The translations under genes were made by a program, and so were the position numbers. Under the pieces are notes generated by a model that worked only from the letters and a program-made list of their open reading frames with translations, made no database searches and was not told where the DNA came from. Shown piece after piece: positions 6,983-64,000 of a DNA stretch of 64,000 nucleotides (positions within the stretch are counted from its first letter, which is position 1; every line of letters begins with the position of its first letter). The stretch spans positions 15,805,805 through 15,869,804 of the forward strand of contig NC_092631.1 of NCBI RefSeq assembly GCF_039555335.1. Reading direction: 5' to 3'. The DNA is from Amphiura filiformis. Taxonomy: Eukaryota > Echinodermata > Ophiuroidea > Amphilepidida > Amphiuridae.

Positions 6983-9900
6983 GTAAGTATAGGTCTTTCA
7001 TCCTAAATAAAAATGCAATATTTGCTTCGATGATTACATACAGATACTGCATTCAACTTTGGATGCAGACTGAATTAATTAAGATATCTGCCCCCCCCCG
7101 TTAAAACGGGTGACGGGGATGTGCGGTCACATTGACCCCCATTTTTCAACTCGCTCTCACCCAATGACCCCCTTTTTTGTTTTACTGAACTCCTCTCACA
7201 TGACCCCCTTGTTTGTTTTTCTGTCACCAAAAGACCCCTTTTTCAAAAATTGTTTTGAAATTTTGAAATTTTTCATCAACTTTTATATCTTGACCCACAA
7301 TTTTTCCCAGTCTCACTGAATGACCCTCTTTTTGGTCAGAATTTCCCCAGTCTCACGGAAATCCCCTTTTTTGGAACCTTCTCACTGAAAGACCCTCTTT
7401 TTCGGTGTCTAGGCTCTCACCGAAAGACCCCTAGTTTCGAACTGCTGTCCGCACATCCCCGTCACTTCCAAAGTCGAGTGCCCCCCCCCCCCCCCCCCCC
7501 GGGTATCTGCCTCCCAAACTTGCCTGTTATGTGCATTACAGGTTGTTATCGATAACATTTTCAGTCTTTGGCGGACTTTGCCATTTTTCTCTTATCTTCT
7601 GACTTCACATTGAATCTTGATGAAGCCATCTTTCTTCCAGTTGCCTAACAGCTTGTAAGATATATCTCATAGTGGACCCTCTTAACCGTATCCCTCTTCT
7701 GCAACTGTAACCCTAATTCAAATTCTAACCCAAAACATATTTCTAGCACTACTAAACAATCATAATCCTAATAGTAATACGTGTACTATATTTTGGAACA
7801 CCAAATCAAGTATGAATTATAGGCCTACACCTAAAGACTTCTCCAAACGCGCCCCTTTCATTGGCTGCTGAATTTGGCACCATTTTTGGTTCTGACCCCA
7901 ACCAGCTTAGGTAGCCGTGTTAACGCTTGCTTTACAGAGTCTAATTATTAATGACTGAAATTCTATCGAGAACGGTGAGCAATGTGGTTTACTTTACCGT
8001 AAAATTCCGTCTACAAGAATATACCGTATGCCTCTAAACGAGGGTTTTTTGACGGAAGATATGAGAGGCAGATACTCTTCACAAAAAAACATTATTTGGA
8101 GTTTGAACAACTATATTACTGCAGGCGACTGCACAAACACGTATTATTGTAAGACCGATATATCATAATATTTTTGTGAAGGGTATTTGCCTTTGGTCCT
8201 CGTTTAGAGGCATAATCATGCTTGTGATATCACACCACCAAATAAATCCTCATAGAGATATGTACTAAATTCGCCTCAAGAAAACGTCCTTTTTTCTTCT
8301 CAAGAGCGACTCAGTTCTTAGCGACAGCTATGATGGTTGAAATTAGCCCTAGCCTGATCCCTCTGACTGGGAAAAATATAGGTTGACCGTCATTATTTTT
8401 TACGACTGGCCCTCGAAGTCTATGATGTCTGGGAATTACCTAATTTACCTGCAAAATCATGCCAGTGTTTCTGTACAGAAACTTACTTTTACTTTTATCC
8501 ACCACTTTTGCCTTTCATAGCGTCGTGGGGAAATGTAACTTTCTTTCCTGGGCGAGTCGGGTAGCCTCACTCATGGTAATCCCATGACTTGCGAGTACTT
8601 CCTTTACTCCATCTGCCCACCTCTTCCTTGGTCTTCCTCTAGCCCTAGTTCCTGTTGTTTTGCTGTTATATGTTCTTGCTGCAGGTTGGCTAGGGGCCAT
8701 TCGCATAAGGTGACTGAACCATCTAACTTTTTGTTTTGCAACATATTCTGTGATTGGTGTGGTGCCCACCATCTTTCTGATATCCTCATTCCTGATTTTA
8801 TCCCTCCTTGACTTATTAGCTGCTCTTCTTAGGCATCTCATTTCACAGGTGATGAGCTTTGGGGTTGTTCTATTGTTGAGAGTCCATGTTTGGCACTGGT
8901 AGCAGAGAGTTGGGAAAAATATGGCATTGATGAGTTTTTCTTTTGTATCCATCGGTATTGCAGGATGTGTGAGAAGCGGGCCTAGTTGGTAGATACTATT
9001 ATTGGCCTTTTGACATCGTGTCTCTATTTCTCTGGTGATACTTCCATCCTCAGAAAAGATACTTCCCAAGTACTTAAACTCCTTCTGTACAGAAAAGACT
9101 GCTTAAAATCATTTAAAAAAAATCGATCTCTCCCATCTGTGGTACACTTGCAGGATTTGATATTACTAATCATGACCAATCCAAATTTAGCCAAAATTAT
9201 GCAAATTTCAGCTCATTTTAATGCTTACCAAGGGTAATTCAAGTTTTTTCTGAGAAATGCATTGGACGCACGACCGTATAATCCTATTTTATATTTGGTG
9301 GTGTGAAATCTTGTAGACGGTATTTGCGGGAGCAGAATGAATCAAACAAAAAGGCAGTAGCCCTATCTGCTCTGTAATATTTAGGCTACATGTAATCACT
9401 GCGTTGTTACTTGGATGGGCATACATGTAGGTCCGCCGTCCAAATTGTTAATTCATATACAGACTTTTTATTAGTTAGAAGTTAAACATTACTGGAAATG
9501 GAATTGGAACAGATTGAATAACGAATACATGTTACATCAAATATTCTACGTCGAATATTCGGAGTCTGTATGACCCTTTAAGCGTAATATTTTTGCTCTA
9601 AATGCAAAAATTGAGTGCCCAATCGGCACCCGTGAGCAATCCCAACATTCCAAAGTCAAAGTGTATACAGGGGTCAAAAGTTTGGCAAACCAAATCCAAA
9701 TAATTCTGCTGGTCCCAAGGATTAAAAAATTATAGTTTGACAAATCTACAACTTATCTGTCTGTAGTTAATAGTGAAAAGGCCCAAGGATTTTGGTTTTG
9801 TTATCTCAAAAAGAATACTTTGCACTATCTAGGGTATTTGTTATCTAGGAATCACAGCAAAATATGTCACAATCAATAGGACTGGATGGGTATCGATCCA

Positions 9901-12900
9901 TTTCGATAACTGTGTTACCCAGGTAACAAAATATCTTAGGTATTGCAAACTATTTATTATTTAAATAATTATTATTGTTGCAACAAACTGACCATTTTGA
10001 GACCATTTTGATGAAAATGTTTTGTTTTTTACCTAAAGCCAAAATGTTGTCCTTCGACCTTAAAGGTGAACCTCATTGAAAATAAAGTTATATGTCAATG
10101 GAAAGCTTATGATGTCAGGATACTAAAAATTATTTTTTCCGATTTTTTTGATGGCCAATAAAGCTGAAAAATTAAAAAAATGATTGAATTTTTGGTCTTT
10201 TTTGAGGCGCCCAAAAAGCACCCAAATCAATCGTCTATGACCTTGGGAATGCTCGTGACGTAAGCTCAGGGTTCGCAGTCACGTGATCCTACTCGGAAAC
10301 ATGTAAACAAGACTTGCTTCCTGTACTTTGCAAGCTGCCCGGCAAGTCTGATTTTCACAATAAAGCTTGAAATTAGAGGAATCTTCAAGTTGCTGGTTCC
10401 TTCTATATATATTAGAAATAATAGAATTATTGTCAATACATACATTTTCCGTAAATTTTTGACAAAATCAGTCATAACTGGCTGGGTATAACTGGGTAAT
10501 TGAGTTTGAATTTCGCGCTGGGATCAATCCCATGCGCAAATGCTTGCTGCTACCGTTCATGTCATGGACTGAATAAACATGATCGAATAACAAATTAAAT
10601 ACTTGTTTGTGACACTCCCTATTCTTGATTCATTTTAAAATATCTGATTAAAAAAAATATCGTCTTGCAGTAATGAAAAAATTAATTAAAAAAAACCAGA
10701 TTTCATCAAATCCAGCCCATATAATGGTTTTCATATTTAGCGCATTGCGGTAATACATTCTTTCCACACAATCGCGATTGAAAGAAACAGATACTCGGCC
10801 AGATACTTTATTATAAAAATAAATACAATTTAGGCTTAGTAGACCGTTATTTGACGGAAATCTGAATAAAATTAAAATATTGTCACTTGTGTCACGATTC
10901 TTTAATGATAGTACAATCAGTGTACGGTACTGAAAAAGTGAAACATTCATGTTTTATGGATTACCGAACACGATGCGTAAATTGCTGCTGAAGAAATTGA
11001 AGGGACGGATATGCACAAACACAGCGACTCGCTTCGGGGCTTCGTCCTCAGCACTTGCGCTGTCTGTTTCATGGGGTGTTTCAGCAGATTTGATCAATCG
11101 TTCCCTTATATTTGGAACATTTACAGGAATATATTACGCTGATGAAGTAGCAATAAGTTGGAAATATCAGAATGTCAATATCAAATCGGTCATTTTGTCT
11201 GCAAGTACAGTACAGTCGCGGATACTGAACACTCGGCGTAGTGAGACTCAGTCAGTCACTGAGCTCATCCCGTATGTATCATATACGAGTTCGCCTATCA
11301 TACATGACCGGCCATGACCGGTTGTAAAGCTAAGAAATAATTAAAACATCCTGTACATATACCTTATTCTATTCCTTCATTTTCTCATTGTGATAAGTTC
11401 ATCTCAACTTGGTGTGACGATCTGAACTGGTAGCACTAGCAGTTATTTTTTGCAACTTGATCTGTTTTCATTCCGGTTCTTCGGCGAATCTTCACTCTTC
11501 GTGTTACTGTAATATTCCCTATGCATATCGTGGATGGCTTGGCCTATCCCAAATCACCCCGGCCAGCACTTTTCCCATTTTTAAATCCACACACTTTATT
11601 CAGGAACTTCATTCTTGATTTGATCATGATATTTCCTTCATGTTATTCTTATTTTATTGAAGATATTTTTCATGTAAAGTAAGTTGACAATGACTGAGTT
11701 CGTGCATTGGCCCGTTGCATGCCACAGTAATACACGGACATTGTGTTTACAATCAAACCCGGAAGTAACTGTGTGTCCCTGAGCTGACGTCATCAACGAA
11801 AGCGCCCAATTTGAACGATTTCGTTTTGTAATTTAGGGGGGGTGCCAATATCCAATCTTTGCATGGAGATTATGTCTAACCTGGTACGCTATGCAAATAA
11901 AAAATATTCTTTTCTGCTTCCTGACATCATAAACTTTCCATTGATATATAACTTTATTTTCAATGAGGTTCACCTTTAACGTTAAGAATTCCAGACTAAT
12001 AAGTTGTAGGTAGGCCAAACTATATTTTTCTGAATCCTACGAATATTTTGGAATAAGTTTTAACTAAATCAGAACAAGTATGAGTTTTAACCCCTGTGTA
12101 AACTTTGACCCTTGATATCTCGGAAGGCTCAGGGGTTCACACTGGACACCCTCCAGATTCTTGTTCTATAATACACCTCAGAGGTCAACATAAAAAGCAA
12201 CAAATCGTAGTCATACCCAACTTTACAGTCATAATCAAGTTCTACCTAAAGTATTATTCAGATTTCCTTTTACAAGTTAACCATCGCGTATACGTGCGCG
12301 ACGTCAAGCGTGTGCATTGGACCATGTGTAAAATACGCGCTGGACGGCTAGCAGTACGCTTAATTTGTAAAAGGAAATCTGAATAATACTTTACCTGACT
12401 AAATATTTTGATATGGTCGTAAACCATGATACCACGAGGAGGATGAGCTGACATTTTAGGGGGCGGGGGGGAGCCGCAATAGTGAAATTGAGGTTTAGTC
12501 AATAGACTCCCGCCTTTCTCTGGACGAATCCAGAATCCAAATTACCACGTTTCTTGTGAAGACAAGAATGTTAATTTTGATACATTTTGACAGTTTATTT
12601 GAGCAAATTGATTTTAACATTACACGATTCTCTCATACAGGTGGTGCACCTCTTGGCGGATGGTATGGTGATTTTCATGAGGAGAAAGGTGTACAATCAG
12701 TTCGCGATGCTCTCGTCAATGGTATCAACTATATAGATACATCACCATGGTATGGAATGGGGAAATCCGAAATGAACATTGGGCGAGTATGTTTCTTGTT
12801 CAACTTTCGAAATGATAATGACGATAGTGTATAAACTTACTATATATGGAAATTTCGGCAGTATTTCTTTTCCAAATACACTAAGCCAAAAAAGAAACCT

Positions 12901-18900: not shown

Positions 18901-21900
18901 ACTAATTAGTGAATTTAATTTCCAGTTAGTGTATTTAAAATAAAACCTGTGATTTACCTGACAACAAATAAAATGTTCTTGCAATAGAAATATCATATGG
19001 GATACTGATATGGTAGGCCGCAACAGCCACAACGCGTAGCTGACTTTTTGCTCCGTGGAGCCAAATTGACCAATCATGTTAGAGTTTTTCATTACTCGGA
19101 GGTAAAACTGACCAATCAAGTACGACTTACTCATTACGTGAAGCGAATTTATTCATTAAGAATTTGCCAGACGAGCTTCACGTAGTTGCAAGATATCCTC
19201 GGTCACGAAAGTTATGATTCAAAAAGTAGTTTATGAAAAGTACGAACCGACTTATTATTAAGATGGACATGCACTCATAAGAAACTCATACAGTATTGTA
19301 CATGACTATATAGCTAGGCAGAGTGGTGGTAAACCATGCGCACAATTCTGCGATGTGCAGTGTATCGCCGGGAGCTAATTTGTACAACTTGCGCGGCGTG
19401 GTCTGCGGAATTCGACCTTCAGCAAACCAGTTCGGATTTACTTTATATACTAGTAGTAGGCCATACATACTGTAGTTACTGTCCGTTTTCCTATACACAA
19501 TACTCAGTGCGCTCACCATTGACGCGTGACCTCTACAAATAGTGTATGTTAGAAGTATAGGCCATTGCCTAGTTGACGTCACTGTGTAAAAAATAACCGG
19601 CCAATATTTAAAGTATTCTCTGAAGTTCTAGAAAATATAGTTTTGTAACATGTCCTAAATTTTTAGCTAATTTAGGTGTTTGGAAATATTGGTACTTTTG
19701 TGTTTTAGGAAGAATATGTAAACGACAGATAACACCAAACAATATGAAGAAATTATTTCTAAACCGTGTTAAGTCTGCAAACCATTATGCTTCTCATTTT
19801 CAAGAACGCTGGTTAACAATAAGCAGACTATTGTCTCATTTCGTAAACAAAAGCGCACACAGTATTGTTACCTTGCATTCGCTTTGTAATCGTTCACCCA
19901 ACTGAAACTATAATACCAGCTCATTGCTCATTGCACAGGTAAAACAGACACAAGTGCAGTGTGTATTTAACCAGAGAAGATCTGATGTAACATAGTTGAG
20001 CTGTTTTCATTGAGTGTTATCATGGGGTTTAAGTCCTTCAAAGGTCGTGGTGAATTCTACTGTAGACATGACTGCATCATGATTATTTTAAAGTCAACAA
20101 CATTCAACAATATGATCACCGTGATAGTATGACAGTATCAGTACCGTGGGTGTCAGTGATCCTGGCCTGACACAGTAGACAAACAAACAAACAAATACGC
20201 CACACACATGACACATGCATGCAAGGTAACATTGACTATACACTAATCAAACAATGGTATTGATCCTGTACAACTGGTCGTGGTTTATTTACATTTGATT
20301 CATTTAAAATCCCCATAGAAAACATTAATTTTGGCAAGAGTTTTCTCTCTCTGGAACGAGGATGCATCCACTGGCTCCGCGTAATGAAAAGATCTAACAT
20401 GATTGGTCAATTTAGCTCCGCGAAGCGAAAAGTAAGCTACGCGTAGCAGCTCCACGTTGTGGCGGTTACGGCCAGCCATATACTGATCATGCGAAAATCG
20501 TAAAAACATAGAATAGAAACAGTGTGGCAGACTCTCAAAATCTCACATTGTATGCTTAGCCTGAGTCACTCGGCCTATCTCGAACAAAATCACCATGCGT
20601 AGCTGTTGAAAAACGTGAGGATTCATCGTACTATCACGGCAATTATTAACACGAAGATATAGGGACGATGACGGTGTGCGGGGGTCTGTTATATCACATA
20701 CGTCGAGCTTTGTTGACAGCTCGGCACCCGATGCAGCACATCGGAACGAAGCTGAGTGTATTAGAATAAGCTTTCCTATGTTTAGAAAATATCTACCTGT
20801 GCAAAAATTATATCTATCTGTGCAAATTCTGACAAATGGTCCCAGAGCACACTTAGATTGCAATGGCCAAAATCAAATGTTTTGAAGTAAAAAAATCCCA
20901 ATTTTACTATCCAATTCATGAATTGGATAGTAAAATTGGCAGGCACTCAACATGGTCAACTTGGGCTAGCTACAACCCTGATAAGGCCTATACACAAAAT
21001 TATTCCCACTGCGCTGGCACGTTCATCAAAATTACTTATATCGTTTGCGACTGGGTTTTGAAACTAGGGAGTATGTGATTTATGAGACGTCTCTGAAATA
21101 TGATACTGTTATGTGACATGACGCTTCAAGAGTATTTGATATCAGAGACGTCTTTGAATTAGCAGTGCCCCCGAGCTGTTATATACCAGGGCTACGACAC
21201 TCAACTCATTTGCATAGCAAAATGACCCGTCTCCTCTGCAGCCAATTTGGCTCCATCGAAATGTTTTTTCTTACGGAGCTACAGCTGTTGAACAAAGGTT
21301 GTTCAGCGATTGTACAACAATATCGCATCGATTGATTGGTTATTCAGGCGTTTCATTGAAGGATGAATTTCACTTCACGCTTGCGTATTCAGCCTGGACA
21401 GACCTGTTGTGCTTTTATCTAGATTTGTTTCTAGATTTCGCGGATGTATTCATTTTAAATAGAGTTCATGCCCGTTGTATGCTAACATGTTCCCACTTCG
21501 AAGAGGTTCAACTGCCTTGACAGAGGCTTCATAATCTAATTCACTACGGTAGCAGTGTCCACGCTTTTGGATGATTTTAAATCAGCCGGTTTCTTCTATC
21601 TAGCTGGCTGGAAATTTCAGCACATGGGCATTGCTCAAGAGAAGAGAAATGCACATAATATTTAATTCAAATGTGGCGCTGTCAGATTGACACGTGGTGT
21701 TGACGCGGTTTCGCAGGTAAACGGTGGAATGACCATCAATTACGGTAAGGTCAACAATGATATGTTTATGCAATGGCGATGGGAAGTTTTTTGTACGAGG
21801 ATCTAGCAAGGTTAGTAAATTTTATGCATGCATAGCTTAAAATATTAATTCAGTTGGTGCACGGTGATGTGAATTTCGATTAATTCAAATAAGTGGGTGT

Positions 21901-24900
21901 AAGTTATACACCGATAAACTGAATGGAGAGTTCATTGCAGGAGCCCATTAGCAGCTGCCTGAAGTCAAACTTAATGGCAATATTGCACCGATAACTAGTA
22001 CATTGTAGTAGAGTCAAATGAAGGAGCGCATCAATAGCTGCTTGGAGTCAAAATATGGCAGCATCGTTGTCAGAATTCCGTATCATACACGATCATGTCA
22101 TAAATTGATATTTCAGTTCTGGGTCTGATTATTCGGACTACATTATTATGATTACAGGATATAAATTTTAAAGTATTATATAGCGTTTTTTGCAGAGGAA
22201 GCTCTGCTAGATTCTAGATTTGTTATCACTGATAATGATAATAGTAAAAATTTGGAAATAGCGTAATTTCAATCATTGGATTTTTATCACAGAATATCCT
22301 TCTAGAGCAGTCGGAAGACCCGGGGTTTTTGTTGTTGCGAGGTAGAAATATTTGGTTTGTGCAGTTTGGAGCGCATAATCAACCCCTGATGATAAAAGGG
22401 TGGTTGAGAAGAGTTGTTGATATGAAGATATTGCCTTAAAGATTCTGCCTTTAATTCCGTGGTATCAGAGTTTGAGTCAAACATTCCGCATTTGGATTAC
22501 ATTCAGATGCAGTTTCAAGAAGATACAACTAAGCAAACTGAATTGGTGAGCAGAAGGTTCGGCAAAACAGGTTTAAAAGAGGAATTGAGCCAAGTTATTT
22601 ATGATATTCTTTGTTTCATATTGAGGAACTGGAGCGTAATTATTCCTATTGGATAGGGGAATAATGTCAACTGGCTATTAATGCCTTTGTATTCCAAAAT
22701 GAATACATAGCTTTTTATTGTCTTATTTCTAAGGATTCAGAGATCGAGCTAAAGAGCTTTCGATAAATATTCAGATTCGGTTCAAAATTTATTGAGGAAC
22801 TGGTGCGTAATTATGAGTTTCCGATTGGATGGGGGAATAATGTAAATTGGCTATGATTGCCTGCGTATTCCAATATGAATACATAGCTACTTATTGTCTT
22901 ATTTCTAAGCGGGTTTCTAAGGCTTCAGAGATCGAGCTAAGGAGCAAGAATTTCGTTTTCGATAAATATTCTGATGTCGGTTCAAAATTTATAAAGGATA
23001 AATAAGCGCAAGTGCGCTAAATGCCAAATTGTTTAAGATCGTTTTCTGGATACAATTCATAAGGCCGATTAAAAAGATTTTCTCGAGCTTAAAGTGGTCA
23101 ATGTTCAAGTATTAATTCTAAGCAGGATCGGTGTCATGTTTTAGAATAAGCTTGCAAAATATGCAATTTGCTTTGTCTGGTATTCAGATTTCCGTCATAT
23201 TGGCATAATGTCTCAATATTAGCAGTTATGAGAGTTTATTGAGAATTTTTAACGGATTTAATGTCTTTTTGGTTAATTGTTGGGGAAGTCATATCTGCTT
23301 AAATTATGTTTATCAAATGTGATCATCATTGTTTAAGCTCCGGAAAATTTAAGGACTGCTCCTCAAATTTGGTAGAGTTCAAAATGTTGAAATCGTTAAG
23401 ATCAAGTTTCATTGTTTTTCTAAATTCCCCGCGAAGAGATTGCAGATGGATATAAGCAAAATGTAGGATCTAGATAATTGAGTATAGTCTTGTTTCAGAT
23501 ATAGAGGTGAGTTTCCTTTCCCGTATAAGGATTCATATTTTGGACTTCACAAGGTAGACTATATCGCTGATAACTCAAGACTGTGAAGCTCTTAAATTTC
23601 AAAAGTAGGCCTAGATTAATTTTTTTTTTTTTTCTATGAAGGCGAGAATCGCGCTCGTCGTATTCTTCTATGCCAAGATGGAGTAAGGCTGTGTTACATT
23701 CCTTCAGGTGTATCCATAGTTAACAAAGCTGATGAGGTGTGGGCGATGCCTGCATAGCTAGCCGGAAATCTGTAACATTAAGTTTTTCAGTCTAGTTTGC
23801 TTAGCACAGGCCTAATGTCTGCGATATGTGCTAAGTGTGGGACATTTGTACCGTCATCAATGTCATGTATAAGTTAGGGGCAATCGTGGTTAAGGGAGAA
23901 ATGGTAGTTTTCTCTTTCAGCTAAATCACGCGGTGGCTCGCATCCGTTTAATATACCACATAATAAATATACTAGTTCGCTTTAAGAGGGAACGGAAAGT
24001 GAAACTGTTTTCACTGGGTATAAATATCTCGTATGTGTTTCTGAGAGGAAACAGGAGTGCAAGATCAGAATTATCGAAAAGGTCTTAACGAATTTGTTTT
24101 CAGGTATATTCAGTAACGGTTTTCTTTTTGAGACTCTATATATTAATATATTATTAATGAATCATCAGGATTTCTGAGTTAGTTGAGTTCCAGAAAGGAG
24201 TTGGTGTAAAATAATGGAAATTTTAGGAAGATTCGGAAATCAGTTACGAGAAGCGTTGATAACGGCAACCGTGCAAGTTGAGGTTCTATAAGAGGATCCA
24301 GAGAAAAAGCCATACTCAAGGCAGTAGATAATATGCAAGGGTAATATTAATTGTCAACGAAACAATGAGATTAATGGAGAGTGTAATTATCGGGACGTCC
24401 CTGTGACGAAGCGGTTAAGGCCATGGACGTCTAATCCATTTATGAATGCTTGCTCAAGTTCGAGACTAATGTCTATTGAATTTAAATGCCATGAAGGTGA
24501 ACCAGAGCGTAAAACATGAGTTACCGATTTGAAAGTGGAATTAAGTTCAAGTTGGCAGACTGTTGGCTGTAAATGCCATGAGGAACCAGAGGGTTTTATG
24601 AGAGCCCGAATGGACAGCGGAATTAATAGTCCATTGGCTGTATACGCCATTTATGTGTTCCTAAGAGGAACCAGAGCGTAGTTATGAGTTATTGAATGTA
24701 CAGTGGAATTATGGAAGCTGGCATTGAACGCCATAAAGTTGGGCCTAAGAGGAAATAGAAAGTAAACATGAGTTTCTGACTCAACACGGAAATTTCATCC
24801 ACCTGCTAAGAATGCCACGAATACGTGTGTTCCTAAGAGGAACCCGAGCACAATGAGTTTCTGAATGGACATGAATTTCCATCGACTAGGTATGAATGAA

Positions 24901-27900
24901 TGCGTTCCTAAGAGGAACCAGAGCTTAATCATGAGTAATGAGTTTCTGATTAGATAGCTTAATTATATTTATTGGCTACGAATGCCATGAATGTGTTCAA
25001 AAGATGAACCAAAGCTTAATCGTGGGTTATTGATTGGTAAGCGCAATTATGTCTATTGGCTACGAAGGTCATGAATGAGTTCCTAAGAGGAACCAATCTT
25101 GTTTTAAACGATCTTGATAAATTCGTTCCTAAACGGAAATAGTTATTGTTTGGGACGTTTAAGAGACGGCTAAATATCATGTATAATTATCGTAATCGAT
25201 ATATATTAATGAAAATTATACACCGAGTGAGAGTAGCTGGAGCAAAGTAAATGCTAGAAATATTTGCCTACGTTATAGCAATCGTTTATAATCAAAGACG
25301 TGTTCCAAAGAGGAGCCAGAGCATAACATTTTGTGAAGCGGTGATCATACTGCGTTTTTCTTTAAAAAGAAAGAATATATAAAAATATCGTTTTGTAAGC
25401 ACACAAAGATGCCTAGTGTCGAGAAGACAATCACAATTAGGCCTAATATCAGCGGAAGGCCGGTCATATATATATAATTAGCCAGTTAGGGCGCAATCCA
25501 AAATTGATATATTAGCATGAAGTTTAAAATTGTCGGCCAGAAATCTAACGAGTCGGAGATCAATTGATATTCAAATACGAATATACTGGCATGCATGCAT
25601 CAATATGCACGCTGAGATTACAACTAGGCAACAAATCCGCTACTAAGCTGTCTCCCATTTCGGTTCCGTATTCCGTTGCAGCTATTCGCAATGGATTTTT
25701 CCTCTGCGAATTTCGTCAAGTTTTATTATTCTCTAGAATAAACTCTATACTGATCGCGTCCTTTTTTTTGACGTCACCGTTCCGGCTTCCGGATCATACT
25801 AATAACATTCGAGAACGTAATCATCAGTGTTTTACGCCATTAAAATATGGCAAACGGCATTATGACGTGGATATCTTACTAAGCTTTAACAAGCCATATG
25901 ATTTCATGCATTGTTTTTGGCTTGGAAGGTTCTAATACTACGAAATAACTAAACTGATTTGCAAGAAAGCATCCCGCAAAAAATTTCAAGAAGATGAATA
26001 GCATTCGTACAATGCTGTCGGACTTGCAGATTTGAGCATTTAGCAGGTTTCTTCAGCGGACTTTTAAGCTTTGAAGAGATGTGATATTCAGACGCTTAAT
26101 GATGCTCTTAACAATTGCAGAGATCTACAAGTACGATTTTAAGTACTATAGGCAAGGATCAATTAAACTTTAGCGGGTTCTCATTCAGAAATATACTTCT
26201 GAGGTAAACAAATGCCAAATAATGATCTCACGTTTATTCATAAAGGAATTTTTCATAATAGCTCAAGATCGGGAGGGATATGGTAATACGGCAGTTAACC
26301 GAGTCCCATGCATACAGGTTGTGAAGTAGCATAGTGTTGGCGTTCACAGCATGCCAAAGATATGGCAATCTGGTAGATATTTTTCAATCTCGTTTTCGTG
26401 ATTAGGCATACATGGATTAACGTCTTGTATCAGATCATGTAGAAGTTTGCTCTTCCAGAAATGAGAGCAGTTGCGATTTCACTAGTTGCTTAAACAGTTA
26501 GAGATTGATTTTTAACGGTTTTATGGTTTAATATAGGGCCTATGCACAGTTAATTTTTGAGGCAAAATAAACCCTTTTCTCGATAAGCCCGTTCTTTGGT
26601 CTTCACGGAGGAGCTGCTGCGGCAAGGCGTCATACCCCATATGAATGTTGTTTTTGTGTGTATTCATTATGTTTAGGGAAACAGCGGCAGCGCGTATGAA
26701 AATATTTTATTCGCGTTTAAGCGCAGCGAATTTAGCGAATAAATGTTTTTTCTTACGGAGCTACAGCTGTTGAACAAAGGTTGTTCAGCGATTGTACAAC
26801 AATATCGCATCGATTGATTGGTTATTCAGGCGTTTCATTGAAGGATGAATTTCACTTCACGCTTGCGTATTCAGCCTGGACAGACCTGTAAATTTTCAAG
26901 ATCTCAACAGAAAGAGGTTATGCTTTGTTTTTTAAGAATGTTTTTTCCCAATTTGGAGTTTGTTGGGTAAGTTAATCTAATTTTTCTCTTGGTCTGATAA
27001 GTAGGCTTAAGGGTAGGTCTTTAACCTGTAATTAGTACAGCCAGGACAGACCGGTAGGGGAGAGCGGGGAGTGTTCGCCCTAGGGGCAGGTTCGCCCACC
27101 CCTTGTTTCTCAGCACTACGGCTATCGGGGGATTTGATGATGGCAAAATTAGGTGACATAGGTTATTATAAACTTCTCATATTAGCTACGCGACATATAG
27201 GGACGTGTTCATCGAACTGCAGCCAAAACAAAAAAATTACACCAAAACGTAATTTTTTGTTGCATTAATAATGTTGTATTATCATTGATACATAAATACA
27301 AGTGGTTTTAATGGAAATCTGTGTTGGGAACATATGGGATTTCTCAAAGATTTAATGCTGTTATAAACTCCTTATTCGATTTGTATTTTGCATACTCTGA
27401 AGAAAATACAAAAATGTGCACAAGGGGCACGTTCGCCCTTTTGAGGATGGGGCATGTTCGCCCTATATCTTCCCCGGGCGGACTTGCCCCAAACTGGAGG
27501 GCGGACCTGCCCCACCAGCGTATTATGCAAAATATTGATAATTATACCATTAAACAAGGTAAAACTACTGAAAAGCATGTTTTTAAAGTTATGTGGTATC
27601 AGTATTACTCATACCACCGTTTATGTCCTAATCCATAATCTCCCCGATGATACGTTTAAGCTCACTTTGGACCCCTACATTTTACCATGACCCGACCCCT
27701 GCAACAAATTTAGTAACTCCCCAGAAGAGAATGGATGCCCTGTATACGCTTGCTAAATGTTTGCATTGAATATGTTATTGTTATGCAATGTTTAAATCTT
27801 TTTTTGTGTTATTAGGGTGAACTTACCCCCACCATATGGGCGAACCTGCCCCAATATGGGGCAAGTTCGCCACTTTGCAAAACTTTTTTGTTTGCTCTAT

Positions 27901-30900
27901 CCTGTTGCTATTGTAAGGCCTATAGTTCTGGGATTGTAACCGTATATAGCTAAGACATAGGGCTTTCACATGAGCTAATCAGGTCATCCCTAACCTTAAA
28001 ATTGACATCGCTAGGCTGGTCAGAAAAAATAGGGCGAACACTCCCCGCTCTCCCCTACGGTACATTTTGTAGATCTCAACAGAAGAGGTTTTCGTCTTTT
28101 AAGAACGCTTTTTCTCAATTTCGAGTTTGTCGAGTAAGCTAATCTAACCTTCCCCTCGGTCCGGTACGTAGGCCTAAGGATAGGCTTTTAGCACGTATCA
28201 CGTAAGTCAGCACAACACTGTCCGGAGCTGCTGCGGCAAGGCGTCATACCCCATATGAATGTTGTTTTTGTGTGTATTCATTATGTTTAGGGAAACAGCG
28301 GCAGCGCGTATGAAAATATTTTATTCGCGTTTAAGCGCAGCGAATTTAGCGAATAAATCAAGCTGGTCACGGAGGAGACTACCCTCCTTTGTGTTTGTTC
28401 ATTTGTGTAAGGAGAGCCCATCTTGGAGTCCGTAATGACTTAGGCTACGCTCTCAGCTAGAGTCCGACGCTGCATTGCACTAGAAATACTTTTCTGTGAA
28501 ATCGCTATAGAGCCAACCGGGAACACGTATTCGTTTTGAAAATATAGCATTAAAATTAGTATCACCCTTGTGGCCCCCGTGCAGTGGAAAACCTTAATTC
28601 TTTCATTAAAAGGAAATGAAAAACAAAACAAAAACACGGATCTACCTGTGCACCTATAAAAATGAGCACAGCAATTTGTCTCAAATAATTATGAATGAAT
28701 TTTAAGAAACATACGGGATGATGATGAACATTGACCTGACGCCATGATAGTAGGATCTATTAGTCGTTTTATATACAATGTATATACCGTATTGTCATAA
28801 TACCAATGTTTGTCATTATATATAATGAGTAATATTTAGCAACGTAAATGTCAGTTCATATGCACAAACGAATACTGCATGATCGATCTTTATGATATTC
28901 AGGTTTTTGTACATCACATATAACATGTCACATAGGAGGTCATACGTGTTGACCTTCATCTATTGTATTTGTTCATCTGTGTATGGACAGGATTAACGCC
29001 ATTAAACGCCATTAAAACTCCATCAGTATAAGGGCGTATAGTTCAGTGAACTCACCGTATTGCTATTCCAAGTACTTTGATAATACAGATAATATGTATT
29101 AATGGGTCGAGACTCGAGGCGATTGCATTGAAAAACCTAATAAATTATTCATAACAGTTACGTAATCAATCGATAGTGCGGACATTTTTCATTTGCAAAC
29201 CACCAAAATTCGTAATCTTTTAGCGTTGGAAAAGAAACCACGTGAATCGAGTGCCCTCTCGAGAATATCTGCTCTCTGTTTATATTATCAAGCACAAATC
29301 ACATGGTTTTATTTAAAACAAACTCATATTGACCATAAAAATGAATAAAAACAGCCGGCTCTCAACACGCGATATTCAAAATTCCCCGCCGCCGAAATTG
29401 TCCAGTGCAATGACGTCGTGGTTATTTGTGCTCAATTGTTGTCAGCCTTCATTGTATTACTGGGACGTCACTGCACTCGATAATCTCGGCGCCTGGGAAT
29501 TTTGAATGTCGCGTGTTGAGAGACGGCTGTTTTAATTAGTTTTTATGGATAATATGAGTTTGTTTAAAATAAAACCACGTGATTCGTGCTTGGTAATTAA
29601 TTTTCTAACATATAAGGCATAATGTTGTGATTGCAGGAGTCATATCGTTTAAATACCGTAGCAATAGGTTAAAACAATTTTTGAATATATCGCCCAGCAC
29701 TACAAGCAGGTTGCACTTATCACCTGTGTATGTCTGCAATCATAGATTAAATGCAATACCGCTCTTTTCAACGGTACTAATCTTGCAGGTTCGAGTGATC
29801 AGCATGATATGGTTCAATGCAGAGGTATCGCGTGAACGTATTAGTGCATCGCGATATATTCAAAAATTGTTTTAACCTATTGCTAAGGTAGTTAATCCGG
29901 TTGTTACATCACTTCTACGGCGAATCAGTGATTTGGGAAATCAGATAACTCCTTCTTTTGCATTTTTTAAAGAAAATAGTATTTTGTCAATTAAAAATCA
30001 ATTTTCAATTGGAAGTATTAAAGTCGATGTTGGAGGCGTTTATCCATTTGGACACTCGTCGCTCGGATGACATATCGCTTGGATGACATACCGACGTATC
30101 AGCTATTTTTGACAACATATCAATTTGTAAGCGCCCTCTAGCAAAGTCATAGTTCATTAAATTTACAACCGTATGACAAAACAGGCGAAAGTAGTAACTT
30201 TTTGCACAAGATTTGCAATTTAAAGAGAATTGGCCATTGCTCATTCTAATGAGGCTAGTATATGGACAATATAAGTGTGCCCTTTCATTTAATGACATAA
30301 AATGTGACCGTACAGCACGAATGAGCCGTAAATGTCCTCAATTGTATTCTGAGTTACAGTGTAAAATGGGCATGAAGGTCATATTCATAGGTATTTCAAT
30401 TTGGTGCTACGTGTATCTCATTAAATGAGGTACACGTAGCACCCAATTGAGGTACCTATGAATATGACCTTCATGCCCATTTTACACTGTAACTCAGAAT
30501 ACAATTGAGGACATTTACGGCTCATTCGTGCTGTACGGTCACAAATTTGAAAAATATTGTGAGGAACACTTGAGGTTTTGACTTTTAAAACCTACATTTT
30601 GGTCAAAAATTGTGCCGTGGTATGTCCATACTAGCGTCACTAGAATGAGCAATGGCCAATTCTCTTTAAATTGCCAATCTTGTGCAAAAAGTTACTATTT
30701 TCGCCTGTTTTGTCATACGGTTGTAAATTCAATGAACTATGACTTTGCTAAAGAGCGCTTACAAATTGATAAGTACGCCACTATGTCGTAACTATTTCGG
30801 TAAATCGCGGCTGTGTGGCTAATACAGATATGAATTCAACAATGACTGGACATAATTGACGTATCACGTGTCGTATGTCAATTTAACCATTTTTCAAAAA

Positions 30901-33900
30901 ATTTACCATACTGGCGTATAAGTTTAATGATTAGTTACAATTAATTGGTGAACGACAACAATGTATTTTCATTAAATATAACTTAAATATCTATTTTTTC
31001 ATATCCATTCAAGAAAAGGAGACATTTTAATCGAGTCGAGGTAATGTATGACAAACGGGTAAAAGTTGCAAAAATATTTCAAATGCAATTTTATCTCATA
31101 ATGGCCATTTTCGTGATACGTCATTATTTCATCCGAGCGAATTCATACACACAATAACTTCACTGATATATCATATTTTCAGTACTTTTTGTTGTTTTTC
31201 ATATGAAACAAATACATGGTGTGAAAAGTATTAACTTATCCTTCACCGATGGTGCTCTTTAGTGCCTGTCTTGTAGGACTACATTTCCTTTGGATCTTAT
31301 TTTGATTTGCTTCGGTTCTTCTTTCAGGGATATCATAGAAAGAAGCACAGTTAAGATAGATACTATCTTGACATTTGCTCACCTGACGATGCATGATACC
31401 ACTCTACTTGGCCATTTATCATACTTCAAGGTAAGTTAGTGTGTAATTGCTATAAATGCATATATAAAAAGACAAACTACCATACAGAGAAAATAGAATC
31501 CAGTAAAATGACAATCGCGACAAAATGAGCAAGAATGAAAGTGGAGGAGTCCAGCAGGTGCGATCCGGGTGCCATCACAAACTGTCGAGAGGCTGATCTT
31601 TGGATATAGCTGGAGAGGAAGGCCATTGCTGAGCACGAGTGGCCCAACATTGTCCGGGTAATGAGCTCACGGGATTCAACTACAACAGGAAACAAAATTA
31701 CGCGTTCCTGAAAAACAATAATTTTGACCATCCAATTTTGATGTTTCTTCTTGATTTTTATGGGTTTAACGTTAAAGTGGTTCTTTTGATATTGATGTTG
31801 GGTCCCATGGAACTCCCCCCCCTGGGGGTGGGGGGATTTTCGAACATAGTCGTACGGGGACATGCCACGTGAACTTTCGGATGTTAACTTTCACTATATT
31901 TTTGCAACCCATCAGTATACCAATTTATGTTACAAATACCACCCAAAAAGCACACAAATTTGCCCAAATTGGTTGTTTTTAAGGGCACTTTTGCCCAAAT
32001 ATGCCAAATTGGGCGCATTGGCTTAAAACCTACCTATCGATATACCAAATCGCTGAAAAGGTATTCCAAAACCGTGACACATCCCCATAAACTTTCAACC
32101 AGGAAGAACCCCCCCATGTACACCCCCTCACCACAAGCGAGGAAAAAGGTACCTTGATCACTTTTACCATGCTTACATATTAATTTCCATTCCGCTTCTA
32201 AACCATTAATTAGGAAAAAGGAGTTGGTGTTATCAATGCGTCACCGTTTGCGTTAGGAATGCTTACACCACACGGCCCTCAACCATGGCACACAGCACCG
32301 GCACCACACATCAAGGAGAATTGTAGGAAAGCAGTTGATTACTGTCAAAGCAATGGAATTGATATTACCAAGTTAGCGCTACACTACACACTTTCCCACA
32401 ATGCAGTGCCGATTACAGTTATTGGTACGTCGAGCCCTGAAGAGATGAAGACCAACATCGGGAACGCTTGTGGTTCTTTGACATCTGTCGAATCTGAAAC
32501 AATGGAATATGTACTTGAAAAGTAAGAAATTAATTGATTGCCTTGTTGTATCCTTTATCGATTTTGATTTAGTTTATCCTGCGTGTTTTCATATTTTGTG
32601 ACGTGTCATGTCAAAAGGAGACACTTTTGGGCAGGTTATCAATTTTGAGGTTTTTACATATCTTAGAGATATTTTGCTCCACAACGCCGTTTACCCCCAA
32701 TGAAATCGGACATTCCTAAGCGAAGATATTGAGTTTGTAAGTTATGGTATTATAAAATTGGAAATTGAGATACCGGTCTTTAAAAATATTATTGACAATG
32801 TTGAGAGTATAGTTGGAATTACCTTGAAAAAATGTCAAGATGCCAGTTATATTCCGGTCTGAAACTATCAGACAATATGTTTAACATTAATAACATCACG
32901 AATTTGCAACAAACCCAAATTGTGAAAAAATCACACCCGGGCAGATTTTTGGCTATTTCTCCATTTACGATCCTGCCCAAAAGTGTCTCCTTTTGACATG
33001 ATACGTCACATTTGATCAAGTGCGGGCGAGTAGGATGGCAGGGGCCATTATGTCCATTTTAATAGACATTAATCGTCGTCCGTATTCCATAGTGGCGTAT
33101 AGTGGGGCGCCGCGAATAAACAACTTTTTGAGAAAATCGGGTTTGAAGAAATGCCAATTTAAAATCGAGTTGTGTAAATCAGACATTCATTATATTTTGT
33201 AAATGATGTGAAATTTCTGTAGTAAACTAAATAGATTTTATTGTTATATATTTTTCAAAAGAAATAAATACATACTTTTGCTGGCAAACTGACAATAAAA
33301 CTATACGTCACTATGGAAAACGAACAAAACGCAATACCTAACCTTTTTTTGTATTTATAGTGAGATCGACTATACGCCACTTTTATACATTTTATAATTA
33401 TGAAATATCGGCAAAATGAAAACATCGTATTCCATAGTGGGGTATAGGTCCGATACGCGTACGCCACTATGACATACGATGTTTTTCATTTTTGCCGATA
33501 TTTCATAAAATAAATGTATAAAAAGTGGCGTATGGTCGATACGCCACTATGGAATACGAAAAATGTCACTTTGTAACTATACGCCACATTTAATTAATCA
33601 ATTACTAATTAATTAGCTAATTATGACTGATGAGACTTAGAAAAATGAAAGAGAACATCATTAAAGACATATGTGCCAATTTTCAAAAAAATGACCAAAA
33701 ATCACTATACGCCACTATGGAATACAGCCGACGTTAACGAAAACAATACAGTGGAGAAGCAACGAAAAAGGAAAGAAGATGAACAAAGAAGTTAAAGCTT
33801 TTCCCCGAGTATTGACCCAGGACCCCTCACGTGCCAAACACTCCATATCGGCGAAGTGTAGCTACGGGTGTTTCGCTAGCCCGGCCAACGAAACCGTGCG

Positions 33901-57100: not shown

Positions 57101-60100
57101 AATACATTATCTTACCTTCCCCAGTGGATTCCATTCTGGATGTTGTGTTGACAGTGTCTCCAAATAAACAATATCTAGGCATCTTAAGACCAACAACTCC
57201 AGCCACACATGGGCCTGTGTTTGAAAGATACACGTAGAAAAATGAAGTGGTTTTGAGAGAATATGTTGTTTGTTGTACTTGTTTATGTGAATATTTATTG
57301 TTTGTTATTTTTAATGTCTTCACGAAATTTAGAATAAAGGTATTTTACATACTCCAGCTTCACATGGACCTGTGTTTGAAAGATATACGTAGAAAAATGT
57401 AGTAGTTTATGAGATAATCTGATGATTTAGTTTTTTGTATTATACTTATTTGTTTGCTTATTGTGGTATGTTTATCATTTTTATGTTTTGACGAAAGTTA
57501 AAAGAGAAGACTTGTCCTAATACTGCCAACTATTATATAGCTAAAGACAAGAGGATGATAATGATGATGATGAGATGAGGTGAGATGATGATGATGATGA
57601 TATGATGGTGATCATCATCATCGTGACGACGTTGTCGACGACGACGACGATGATGATTATAATAATGAAGATGTAGGTTATGAAGGTAGAGAAGAGGATG
57701 AAAAAACGTCAGCTGGTAATCAAACCTGAGTGCACACCGGCCCGAAGCTGTAGTCGCTTTTCTGGTACATGTCTTATCTTAAATGTATCAACAGCTTTGA
57801 GTAACGCCAATGACATCTTAGCTATCTCTTTTGCATGTGATAAACCATTGGGTATAGGTAAACCAGAGACAACCATATAGGCATCACCTATTGTTTCAAC
57901 CTGAAAAATAATTAAATTTGTCATCAAAGAATGGGAGATCAAACGTCAAAAAAACTAAGCAATTAAATTCTTGTCCTATATACAAAATATTAGAACAGTG
58001 TAGCCTCTAAAGGTTAGGGCGTCCAACTCATGATCGCAAGTTTGGTTGTGGATAACAAATGGATAAGGGCACCGTCAGGACGTGTCATTGTACGTGTCAT
58101 TTTATCTCGCTTTTCCACTCTACCCAGGTGTATAATAGGGAGCTATTAGGAGTAGCTTTGAACAAATGAAAAGGCGTTATTTAAGCATGAAAAATGGGGC
58201 TGTGCACTTTAGATATCAAGCCCCACATTTTCTATCAAACAATTATGTTACACCATCTCCCGACACACCTCAATTAATATTTAGCCCGTGTGGTTTATGC
58301 AGACCCCTACCAGACCAGTCTTTGAATTTTGCGAAAAAATATTCCATATTTAATGTCAAGTCTGTATTATTGGAAACCGAATAATCTACCTTATAAACGT
58401 CAAAATTGCCAATTATACCGTCAAAACAGGTGTACAGATCGTTTAACAAGGCAACGACCTAAAATAGACGTGACAAAAATATGATCATAATCAAAATGTT
58501 GGTTTTAAACATTGTTCGGTATCATGCTCATAACTTCCTCGGAAGTAAAGCTATTTGAGTTAAATGTGAACACTATGTATATGGGTAGGGTATTATGGGG
58601 GTGGTACTGGTGTATAGGGGGAGGGTACGGGTCTATTGGGGGCTGTGTGTGATTGTGTGTGAGGGGTGCGTGGGGGTGCGTAAGGATTAAAGATTAAAGA
58701 CACCAAAGTGAAAATTAGTATTGCTTTTTTCATTGTAGATTACGTATTGGTTGATGGATGTGATGGTGTGTTGGGGTGTTAGTTTATGTGTGGGGTGTTT
58801 ATACCTGTGTGGTGGGGGTGCGTGGATAGGGTGTGTGAGTGCATGTAGTACCTGTGTAAATATTTCTGTTTCTTTACACGTGTGGGCGTTAAAAGTGTAT
58901 AAGCAGTGGGATGTGATGGTGTTGGGGGGGGGTTGCGCTGGTGGGTGTATGTGGATGTTAGGTGCGTATGTGCATATTTCACTTCGGAAAAGAGCACCTG
59001 CATTGGAGTACTAGCGGCAGATAGTGACGTGAAGCCAACAATATCACTAAAGAATATCGTCACCATTTCAAAGGTCTCTGGGTCTACGGCATTTCCACGC
59101 TTTAGTTGATCAGCAACAGATCTTTAAAAAATAGATTTTATTTTATTGCATGTATTTCTATTTTGATTGCACTAATGAAAACAATTTATGATGTACGTCT
59201 ACACTGTTAGTTTTAGCAGGATCCATGTGAGAGGTATAAACAACGTATAAAGACTGAAATGAATGTTGTCAAGTTGTCGAGCTTGAGGGCCGAGTGCACC
59301 AAATCGGCATAACTAACTATGACATAGTATCTCGATCTATACCACGTCATAGCTACTCCAGATCTCCGTGTCTGTTATTCTTACTCAAATAGTATATTTC
59401 CGAGCATACCTGGCTTCAGCAGAATAACTTCAAGAATGACAGTCAATGAACTCATGTAGTCATATTTATTGGCGAAAAACCTGGCAAGCGACTTCAGCAG
59501 AATAACTATCTCACTATAATGACAGTAAATGGACCAGTTCAATTCTTTTCAACGTGGTGAGTTGTTATGTTAATAATAACAATCCATAAAGTTATGTCAT
59601 GTCATGTACCAGTATACAAATATTATACAAATATTGACTGCTATGAGGGGCATGGTTAAATTTGTAGGCCCGCGGTGATCTCAAAACCATGACTATGCCC
59701 CGATGCGTAGCCGAGGGGTATAGTCATGGTTTTGAGATCACCGCGGGCCTATAATTTTAACCATACCCCGAATAAAAAGCAGTCAATATTTGTTTTATAT
59801 ACCAAACCGTAAGATTCTTGTCATCTGTTTGGTTAAAAGCATCGATTTTGGAAAGAGAAAGTAATAGTTTCAATGCGAACGGCACAGACGATGTCCACGT
59901 AATTATAGCGCGCGAAAACATTAACGCGTGCGTAATATCATTTTACGCTGGGAACAAAGCACACGCAGAACTATGCCCGCTTTTGCGGGCATAGTCAAAA
60001 TTATGCCCGCTCTTTTAACCAATCAGATGGCGGGAATCTTTGGATGAGGTATATAATGACTGCTATGAGGAGCATGGTTAAAATTATAGGACCAAGGTGA

Positions 60101-63100: not shown

Positions 63101-64000
63101 TTTAGCTTTCATCAAAAGCACACTATATGTTTGTAGGCGAGGTTTTACGGTATTCGTGTCAGCCGGCCGACATCTTAGAGGTTTTTTGAGCAAACCAGAT
63201 ACTGTAATTTTACTAAGAGCAGAGTCAGTATATTATAATCAACCCACAGTAGGCTACTATGAGGCACGGCACTTTGTGGCACTTTTGCTATGTTATGAGT
63301 CCGCACAAAGACGAAAAGCTTCAGCTTTGTTCACACAACGTGCTCAATTTCGAACTTTTTAATATTTAACGAATTTTGAGCTATGTAATTTGAATTGCTT
63401 GACTTTACTCTCTGTATTTTGTATTGTTTCTCCTCCTTCATCATGTTTAGCCCACTTGATGAATTCGTAAAGTCCGAAATCTGTGAGTTTTAATACGAAT
63501 CTGCTATCGATAGTACAGTTGGATGAGCTCAGACGCCCATGGATACCCAAGACGCTACCATGGAGGTAGTGGAGACCCTGGAACAAATTTGAGATATACA
63601 CAAAGGTATGAAAGCATAAAGCATAAAGTGAATATGCCCCCTCTGGCCCCACTCAAACCTGGTTTCAAAAATGTTAGATAGTTGTAACTATACAGTTACT
63701 TAATCAAGTGGAATCAATTGACCAAACTGGGAACTGCTGCGGCCAGAGTGGGACCAAATAGTGTTGGGACGCAGGTATCAATTCAATTCTACTTGAGTAA
63801 ATACAGTATAAATTGTTTGGTAAATATCTACACCTTTTTTTTGTATTGTAATGGCCGCCCACATTATCTTTAGTCCTCGAAATGTTGCATTGCCGATTTG
63901 TCGGTATTACTTTCAGCAATAAGCATGAGAAAATATTACCTTCGCCATATCAATCATCAGTGAGTGCTTGAATGATGTGTCCAGCTTGAAGGAGTCATTT
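54085..64000 (-). CDS. Receptor-type guanylate cyclase, C-terminal part (11 exons, 5' incomplete)
   Basis: Membrane guanylate cyclase making cGMP from GTP, with 441 residues to the stop codon visible. Order: pseudokinase domain (about residues 1-180), linker helix with [20 protein letters not shown], then the cyclase domain. The pseudokinase keeps TDFG, but the catalytic loop reads [10 protein letters not shown] without the catalytic Asp, as in natriuretic-peptide-receptor-type cyclases. The cyclase has the metal-binding Asp in [12 protein letters not shown] and in [13 protein letters not shown] (whose Glu also selects guanine), plus [19 protein letters not shown] with the Cys, Asn and Arg of the active site. 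It ends [14 protein letters not shown] plus a 12-residue tail. Extracellular and membrane parts lie past the right edge. All phases match. Echinoderm sperm-peptide receptors are of this class, but ligand and tissue cannot be read here. Confidence 0.96.
54680..55178. mobile_element. hAT-like MITE, 499 bp, in the last GC intron
   Basis: It is flanked by an exact 8-bp duplication, CATAATAC (54672-54679, 55179-55186). TIRs have homopolymer G/C ends, then GCACTCAACTTT, AAGTGA and GGTATGTGCC. The interior repeats AAAAAGGGGGTCATTGGGTA many times. No transposase. An 8-bp duplication is the hallmark of hAT elements. Confidence 0.85.
55281..55671. repeat. 391-bp fold-back element next to a splice donor
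   Basis: Arms of about 185 bp share TCATAAGATTGATAAAGGTT, GATCCAATAAAATGATACTA, CATCTAGAAACACCAGTA-like and CAGACAGAAGTGTTGCCGGT in inverted order. Its right end is eight bases from the end of the exon at 55679. Confidence 0.85.
55679..55770 (-). CDS. Guanylate cyclase exon, end of cyclase domain
   Basis: [20 protein letters not shown], then [10 protein letters not shown]; acceptor ATATTCAG, donor GTATAA. A fold-back element begins within the first ten bases of the following intron. Confidence 0.92.
55790..57115. repeat. GC intron with repeated GCCAGCCGGG blocks
   Basis: Segments around 56270-56295, 56840-56880 and 56975-57015 share AAATATCTCAG, TTTTCARAATTGCCAGCCGG and CAGATAGGGG; an inverted AACCCGGCTGGCACC follows at 57040. 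It is a dispersed repeat cluster without a gene. Confidence 0.6.
57116..57214 (-). CDS. Guanylate cyclase exon, purine and transition-state residues
   Basis: [20 protein letters not shown], then [12 protein letters not shown]; acceptor AACACAG, donor GTAAGA. Confidence 0.95.
57540..57675. repeat. GAT/GAC trinucleotide microsatellite
   Basis: Runs of GATGAT change strand sense at 57612 (ATCATCATCATCG) and continue as GACGACGACGAC. Intronic. Confidence 0.9.
57726..57900 (-). CDS. Guanylate cyclase exon, second metal site
   Basis: [19 protein letters not shown], then [19 protein letters not shown]; acceptor TTTTTCAG, donor GTTTGA. Confidence 0.95.
58390..58458 (-). CDS. Guanylate cyclase short exon
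   Basis: 23 residues, [17 protein letters not shown] and NFDVYK; acceptor TATTTTAG, donor GTAGAT. Phase 0 at both ends. Confidence 0.94.
58560..58980. repeat. GT/GGGT-rich low-complexity intron
   Basis: TGTGTGGGGTGT-like words throughout, in the intron between the exons at 58390 and 58998. Confidence 0.85.
58998..59121 (-). CDS. Guanylate cyclase exon, first metal site
   Basis: [18 protein letters not shown], then [16 protein letters not shown]; the Asp in FFSD binds metal. Donor GTGCTC, phase 0. Confidence 0.95.
59630..60130. repeat. Inverted hairpin pair plus third copy
   Basis: TGACTGCTATGAGGGGCATG...GTGATCTCAAAACCATGACT (59630-59700) is followed by its inverse (59705-59795) and by a direct copy at 60057-60117. 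Between them CTATGCCCGC and GCGGGCATAG form a tight stem at 59973-59996. Probably a fold-back transposon; intronic in the cyclase gene. Confidence 0.7.
60354..60503 (-). CDS. Guanylate cyclase exon, coiled-coil linker
   Basis: Acceptor TTATTCCAG, donor [25 protein letters not shown] and [17 protein letters not shown], the dimerising signalling helix between kinase-like and cyclase domains. Confidence 0.95.
60905..60945. repeat. Small hairpin
   Basis: GTCAGGGAACTTTT and AAAAGTTCCCTGAC flank an 8-10 base loop. Intronic. Confidence 0.85.
61430..61745. repeat. Degenerate tandem repeat, about 110-120-bp unit
   Basis: Three units share GGTCATCCRAGGTCAAAGGTC, AGGTCAAATTYAAAGTTGCT, GATCGGGCTGTAACT and CACTTGGGGAGTWT words. 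In the intron before the exon at 61939. Confidence 0.8.
61939..62107 (-). CDS. Guanylate cyclase exon, kinase-like C-lobe
   Basis: Acceptor [20 protein letters not shown], then [21 protein letters not shown] weak donor GTACCA was chosen because it alone gives the phase 2 join (LRKLNK-ESNSE); a better-looking GTAAAA 16 bases further on does not. Confidence 0.88.
62248..62590. mobile_element. MITE-like inverted repeat
   Basis: TTTTGGGACACTTTGACCTC at 62308-62330 and its inverse at 62521-62545, with the inner/outer words TTTGCAATGATTTGCAA also mirrored. In the intron between exons at 61939 and 62637. Confidence 0.65.
62637..62786 (-). CDS. Guanylate cyclase exon, KLLWKAPE region
   Basis: Acceptor TTATTTCAG, donor [22 protein letters not shown], then [13 protein letters not shown]. 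Phase 1 at both ends. Confidence 0.94.
62913..63150. mobile_element. 238-bp MITE, TA target
   Basis: TIR of about 54 bp starting CCGTAAAACCTCGYCTAC and including TTTTGATGAAAGCTAAATTA; TA on both sides (62911-62912, 63151-63152). Intronic, Tc1/mariner-type. Confidence 0.9.
63409..63577 (-). CDS. Guanylate cyclase exon, pseudokinase catalytic loop
   Basis: Acceptor TTGTTCCAG, donor [26 protein letters not shown], then [13 protein letters not shown]. Ends phase 1. Confidence 0.93.
63940..64000 (-). CDS. Guanylate cyclase exon (partial at window edge)
   Basis: Encodes [20 protein letters not shown] of the kinase-like domain; donor GTAATA, phase 0. Confidence 0.88.

Follow-up and report, generated by a model that had tools for sequence, protein, structure and literature searches.

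A putative non-autonomous split-direct-repeat retroelement in the genome of the ophiuroid Amphiura filiformis

A stretch of 64,000 nucleotides of the Amphiura filiformis genome (hereafter, the window) contains two pairs of direct repeats in interleaved order, which raises the question of what kind of element they delimit. An earlier note, made on the letters of this DNA, had described a 149-bp repeat (A) and a 135-bp repeat (B), each with two identical copies, in the order A1-internal-B1A2-B2. Both pairs were confirmed, with identities of 149/149 bases between A1 and A2 and of 135/135 bases between B1 and B2, and the repeat coordinates gave the same order (Table 1). Self-alignment E-values for these repeats were about 1e-51 to 1e-58, indicating that exact matches of such length are far beyond chance. 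With 0 differences in 280 bases, the divergence of the copies is at most about 1.1% at the 95% level. Apart from a short extension to the left of A1, neither repeat had another match in the 64-kb window at E-values up to 0.01.

The tetranucleotide AAAT, reported to end B, to begin A and to occur once in B1A2, was found as described at all three sites: positions 21259-21262, 26741-26744 (the join of B1 and A2, in single copy) and 28355-28358. In both B1 and B2 the AAAT core is overlapped by AATAAA, a candidate poly(A) signal. The element is preceded at A1 by CTCCATCG and followed at B2 by CAAGCTGG, and these flanks, given earlier as the two sides of a predicted empty site, were read in the window as stated. 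The flanks adjoining the outer AAATs differ, and no target-site duplication was present beyond the short core shared by the junctions.

Table 1. Positions of the element, its repeats and associated features in the window.
Feature	Positions	Strand	Remarks
Whole element, A1-interior-B1A2-R1-(insert)-R2-B2	21259..28358	+	7100 bp in all; about 6094 bp once the insert and one CGG are removed
A1, 149 bp, AAAT at start	21259..21407	+	identical to A2
Interior, 5202 bp, without recognisable coding	21408..26609	+	G-over-C skew +0.167; Pfam, frame and skew analysis
Unit of about 170-190 bp, two copies	22619..22998	+	one repeat of the ~84-bp type in each; repeat search/self-alignment
Degenerate array, about 8 units	24483..25156	+	unit spacing 75-91 bp, typically around 84 bp; repeat search, unit alignment
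B1, 135 bp, AAAT at end	26610..26744	+	identical to B2
AAAT core common to B1 and A2	26741..26744	+	presumed circle junction and crossover
A2, 149 bp	26741..26889	+	identical to A1
R1, repeat unit of ~165 bp	26890..27054	+	~76% identity with R2
DNA-transposon-like insert, 1003 bp	27055..28057		28-bp terminal inverted repeats, perfect; flanked by CGG at 27052-27054 and 28058-28060
R2, repeat unit of ~163 bp	28061..28223	+	~76% identity with R1
B2, 135 bp, AAAT at end	28224..28358	+	identical to B1
CACGGAGGAG in right flank	28368..28377	+	ACGGAG 10 bp from AAAT, as in A1/A2; possible target-site resemblance

Coding capacity was analysed in the six frames of positions 21408-28223, with stops read as X. 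This search returned no Pfam family at E-values up to 1, a range in which the filters of the tool drop most matches above about 0.1, and its results included no methyltransferase, RT/RNase H or tyrosine recombinase. The longest stop-to-stop frame of the interior was 128 aa, and 21 of 200 dinucleotide shuffles contained one at least as long. On the empty six-frame search and a longest frame within the shuffle range we rejected a coding interior, in agreement with the earlier note, which saw neither RT nor recombinase.

The base composition of the interior was also distinctive, with a GC skew of +0.167 vs −0.028 and +0.001 in the two 5.2-kb stretches that border the element. When 5202-bp segments were taken along the 64 kb in 100-bp steps, the eight most GC-skewed of those listed all started between 21301 and 22101. 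This peak over the interior supports a single strand-asymmetric unit, although the skew is not uniform (in 400-bp bins, −0.04 at 21200-21599 and −0.12 at 25600-25999, inside the interior).

The interior also harbors a degenerate array with a period of about 84 bp, unmentioned in the earlier note. Ten such units were extracted and nine were aligned, the one at 25073-25156 being left out since its second half aligned poorly; no base pair of a conserved fold was predicted from the nine-unit alignment. The array as a whole (24483-25156) folded better than 20 of 20 shuffles (z −2.75), and the RNA fold of B1A2 was no better than that of shuffles (reached by 40 of 200). No Rfam family matched within the window at the gathering score; two sub-gathering matches in 21000-28700 (E-values of 0.63 and 3.8) were weak and were taken as chance. 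No tRNA was found, and a decayed tRNA-Ser suspected by eye at 24401-24470 was supported by no tool.

The arrangement of the repeats was compared with those given in excerpts of the literature, namely A1-[ORFs]-B1A2B2 for Ngaro (PMC8547959), A1, B1, A2 and B2 for PAT (PMC4157794), and A1, B1, A2 and B2 for VIPER, with A1 at the 5′ side and B1-A2-B2 at the 3′ side (PMC6681497). As excerpted, the Ngaro elements DIRS-53_XT and that of Cafeteria resemble the A. filiformis element both in the order A1-internal-B1A2-B2 and in having identical repeat pairs of similar size; the repeats of DIRS-53_XT, from the frog Xenopus, measure 236 and 152 bp and are 100% identical (PMC9210276), and the Cafeteria Ngaro, at about 6 kb, is also similar in length to the insert-free element (PMC8547959). 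Split direct repeats are likewise found in PAT-like elements, among them Pat1 of sea urchin, which is of the echinoderm form (PMC4157794). The differences lie in coding content: Ngaro encodes Gag, RT/RNase H and tyrosine recombinase, and PAT encodes RT, methyltransferase and recombinase (PMC4157794), whereas none of these was found in our element. For the Cafeteria Ngaro, solo AB repeats and copies without ORF1 have been reported, and the excerpts of that paper describe no wholly non-coding interior (PMC8547959).

Altogether, the layout, two repeat pairs without differences, the single AAAT common to B1 and A2 and the lack of recognisable coding are best read as a non-autonomous tyrosine-recombinase retroelement, and we consider it likely that the locus is a non-autonomous split-direct-repeat retroelement of Ngaro/PAT/VIPER layout on the + strand. 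Since no RT, RNase H or recombinase was found, it could belong to this class only as a non-autonomous relative of the autonomous members. Such putative membership rests on layout, by which, with no protein domains to go by, Ngaro, PAT and VIPER are not separable. Having no recognisable protein genes, the element is probably a hitchhiker that borrows the enzymes of another element. The identity of the A and B copies suggests a recent move, unless gene conversion homogenised both pairs; the element has probably moved recently, mobility being judged from one copy. The earlier claim of a recently moved non-autonomous element of DIRS/Ngaro type is thus supported by layout, repeat identity and absent coding, but not with regard to the classical DIRS1 type: among 13 inverted pairs of at least 20 bp in 20500-29000, a search in which gapped repeats could be missed, none joins the ends of the element.

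The region between A2 and B2 contains an insert with inverted-repeat ends, surrounded by two diverged repeats of about 165 bp, R1 and R2, all of them overlooked in the earlier note. Removal of the insert together with one CGG produced a join that can be aligned with the A2/R1 border, so that the element itself offers a check on the reconstructed empty site of the insert. In addition, the GC skew of the insert was −0.031, a low value as expected for foreign DNA. The 1,003-bp insert probably did not belong to the element at first; the span previously taken as one element is correct in its repeat-defined ends but includes this DNA-transposon-like sequence. Without the insert the element measures about 6.1 kb, and the gap between A2 and B2 is reduced to about 330 bp holding the diverged R1 and R2, a feature that is not diagnostic and that we counted against the retroelement reading. 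Homology of A as a whole to R1 or R2 was rejected, as simple shuffles reached the scores in 23/200 and 171/200 cases, respectively; 20-odd bases at the end of A match the end of R1.

In the scheme that we infer, with its RNA intermediate, circle, recombinase, partner and recent last move, an RT supplied in trans would copy a transcript that begins inside A1 and stops inside B2. The internal B1A2, where both ends are already joined, would act as the template from which the ends that the RNA lacks are restored and a DNA circle is closed at the B-AAAT-A junction. The circle would then be crossed over with a chromosomal AAAT by a tyrosine recombinase, also supplied in trans, which would leave one AAAT per end and no further duplication. 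As the element encodes nothing recognisable, both RT and recombinase would come from the partner. According to excerpts of PMC3266345, DIRS1-type circles integrate by recombination of a 3-bp junction with an identical genomic sequence, without duplication; the A. filiformis element agrees with this, AAAT being its presumed core. The junction pattern and the B-end pattern had no exact match in the virus collection viral_contigs, and the B pattern had none in the prokaryote collection genome_contigs.

Among the rival explanations, the one that survives best assumes two Crypton-like DNA elements in tandem, A...B copies of 5.5 kb and 1.6 kb adjoining at one AAAT, with no RNA step, from which an identical layout with a single shared AAAT would result. 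In the excerpts of PMC3212892, Cryptons combine a recombinase, a presumed circle, a short shared core and non-autonomous copies: they are thought to move as circles, they were first described with terminal direct repeats of 4 or 6 bp, and one non-autonomous Crypton retained 438 and 260 bp of the ends of its parent at 98% identity. However, the same excerpts describe Cryptons without long direct repeats, unlike our element, and state that terminal repeats were not detected in the Cryptons of animals (PMC3212892). Furthermore, comparison of the A2-B2 with the A1-B1 segment detected no homology beyond A and B themselves, so that two such elements would stand side by side with interiors lacking detected homology and yet with 280 bp of ends without a difference. 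We regard this explanation as rather improbable.

Three further explanations appear still less credible than tandem DNA elements. Local segmental duplication or gene conversion is a general source of identical direct repeats, and small likenesses do exist outside the element, namely a stretch to the left of A1 that shares 12 of 14 bases with the end of B, offset by 3 bases, and CACGGAGGAG. On the other hand, two separate events would be needed that gave abutting copies, one shared AAAT and AAAT at the outer ends, and no homology was detected between the interiors or in the wider flanks, which makes this origin very unlikely. Misassembly, in which reads from repeat copies were wrongly joined, is favored by the capacity of identical repeats to mislead assemblers; as we see it, the artefact would have to mimic a known layout to the base, and we give it very little credence. 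A once-autonomous element whose genes decayed in place is similarly hard to sustain: Pfam can miss proteins that have diverged or decayed, yet identical A and B copies look young and no domain appeared at E-values up to 1, so that the genes would have decayed before the last move. An LTR retrotransposon was rejected because A lies at the left end and internally and B internally and at the right end, with no whole repeat at each end.

A non-autonomous split-direct-repeat retroelement is of a kind already known, with precedents in SIRE and TOC1. TOC1 of Chlamydomonas codes for little and carries an internal array of 76-bp repeats. In organisation, these traits and its split direct repeats recall the A. 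filiformis element, TOC1 being an element of an alga. In the excerpts of PMC3266345, TOC elements are named as PAT-group members with split direct repeats. SIRE of Trypanosoma cruzi is, as excerpted, a short non-autonomous derivative of VIPER that spans the A2-B2 region (PMC6681497, PMC12278014). VIPER and SIRE are like our element in having A1 at the 5′ side and B1-A2-B2 at the 3′ side, and SIRE is non-autonomous too, but SIRE retains A2-B2 only, whereas the A. filiformis element presents the full layout around a 5.2-kb non-coding interior in another host group.

Non-autonomous elements with split direct repeats seem to be little described. The exact phrases for non-autonomous DIRS, Ngaro and tyrosine-recombinase elements had no match in the literature searched, which covers few subscription papers and therefore constitutes weak evidence of absence. 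In broader searches, SIRE was the only non-autonomous element of this type met in the excerpts returned; the excerpted text of a paper on fungal DIRS and Ngaro elements (PMC3783388) does not use the word autonomous, and nothing on the interior of TOC1 was found in the literature searched. The element is an expected case among known split-direct-repeat retroelements; a young copy with a clean junction and defined flanks would make simple tests of trans-mobilisation and target choice possible.

The flanks also showed a possible resemblance to the arms of the junction. Within the window, CACGGAGGAG is confined to two places, the left edge of B1 and the flank beyond B2. The pattern AAAT-N10-ACGGAG has three occurrences in the window, in A1, in A2 and in the right flank, two of these being the A copies themselves, vs 0.15 expected, and three occurrences were reached in 0 of 100 shuffles. 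The site was further compared with the other 1669 AAAT sites of the window (1672 minus the three of the element), using measures picked after the likeness had been seen. Three of them were favorable, being reached by 2 (left-arm local score), 15 (right-arm same-register run) and 3 (summed local score) of the 1669 sites. On the contrary, the right-arm local score was reached by 439 sites and the right-arm ungapped identity (9/30) by 608, and the left-arm ungapped identity (4/30) and same-register run were reached by 1600 and 1314 sites, respectively. The possible target-site resemblance is thus post hoc and mixed, and is read from a single site. A broader suggestion, which we hold to be doubtful, is that an animal family exists of large non-coding split-direct-repeat elements with an internal ~84-bp array reminiscent of that of TOC1, mobilised in trans, with a recombinase choosing AAAT sites whose arms are like those of the B-AAAT-A circle junction; if true, target choice by eukaryotic tyrosine-recombinase retroelements would be readable from sequence.

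Regarding the genomic setting, ten open frames of the window were put to Pfam and four of them matched. Two aldo/keto-reductase matches on the + strand, at 12499-12831 (profile positions 5-57) and 32214-32522 (profile positions 182-280), lie on either side of the element, which therefore probably sits in an intron of an aldo/keto-reductase gene whose mid-domain part was not located. The other two matches, likewise in keeping with an animal, were to guanylate cyclase, in 58782-59123, and to a kinase, in 63362-63652. Finally, TAGGCCTA, a sequence common in sea urchins and their relatives and taken here as a lead only, occurred 14 times, vs 0.75 occurrences expected from base composition.

The insert between R1 and R2, the diverged repeats of the candidate split-direct-repeat element, was DNA-transposon-like and had perfect 28-bp terminal inverted repeats, which begin TAGGGGAGAGCGGGG..., and a CGG that flanks it on both the left and the right. 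The longest frame within this insert was 108 aa, a length that was reached in 33 of 200 shuffles.

Features in and around the element (window positions)
Feature	Position	Strand	Remarks
Open frame	8515-9102	-	195 aa
Perfect inverted repeat	20898-20939		21-bp arms, spacer 0; just left of element
Degenerate ~84-bp repeat units	22619-22998 and 24483-25156		
DNA-transposon-like insert	27055-28057		1,003 bp

In the interior of the element, a G-over-C skew was sustained along the non-coding stretch 21600-25600, where each 400 bp gave a value between +0.13 and +0.33. A conserved fold was sought in the alignment of the ~84-bp units and was not found; by eye, a hairpin (GTTCC-TAAGA-GGAAC) was observed in some of them.

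Comparison of the open frame with Pfam gave no matches at E <= 0.001. Inspected by eye, its product looked like the C-terminal portion of a reverse transcriptase protein of the LINE type.
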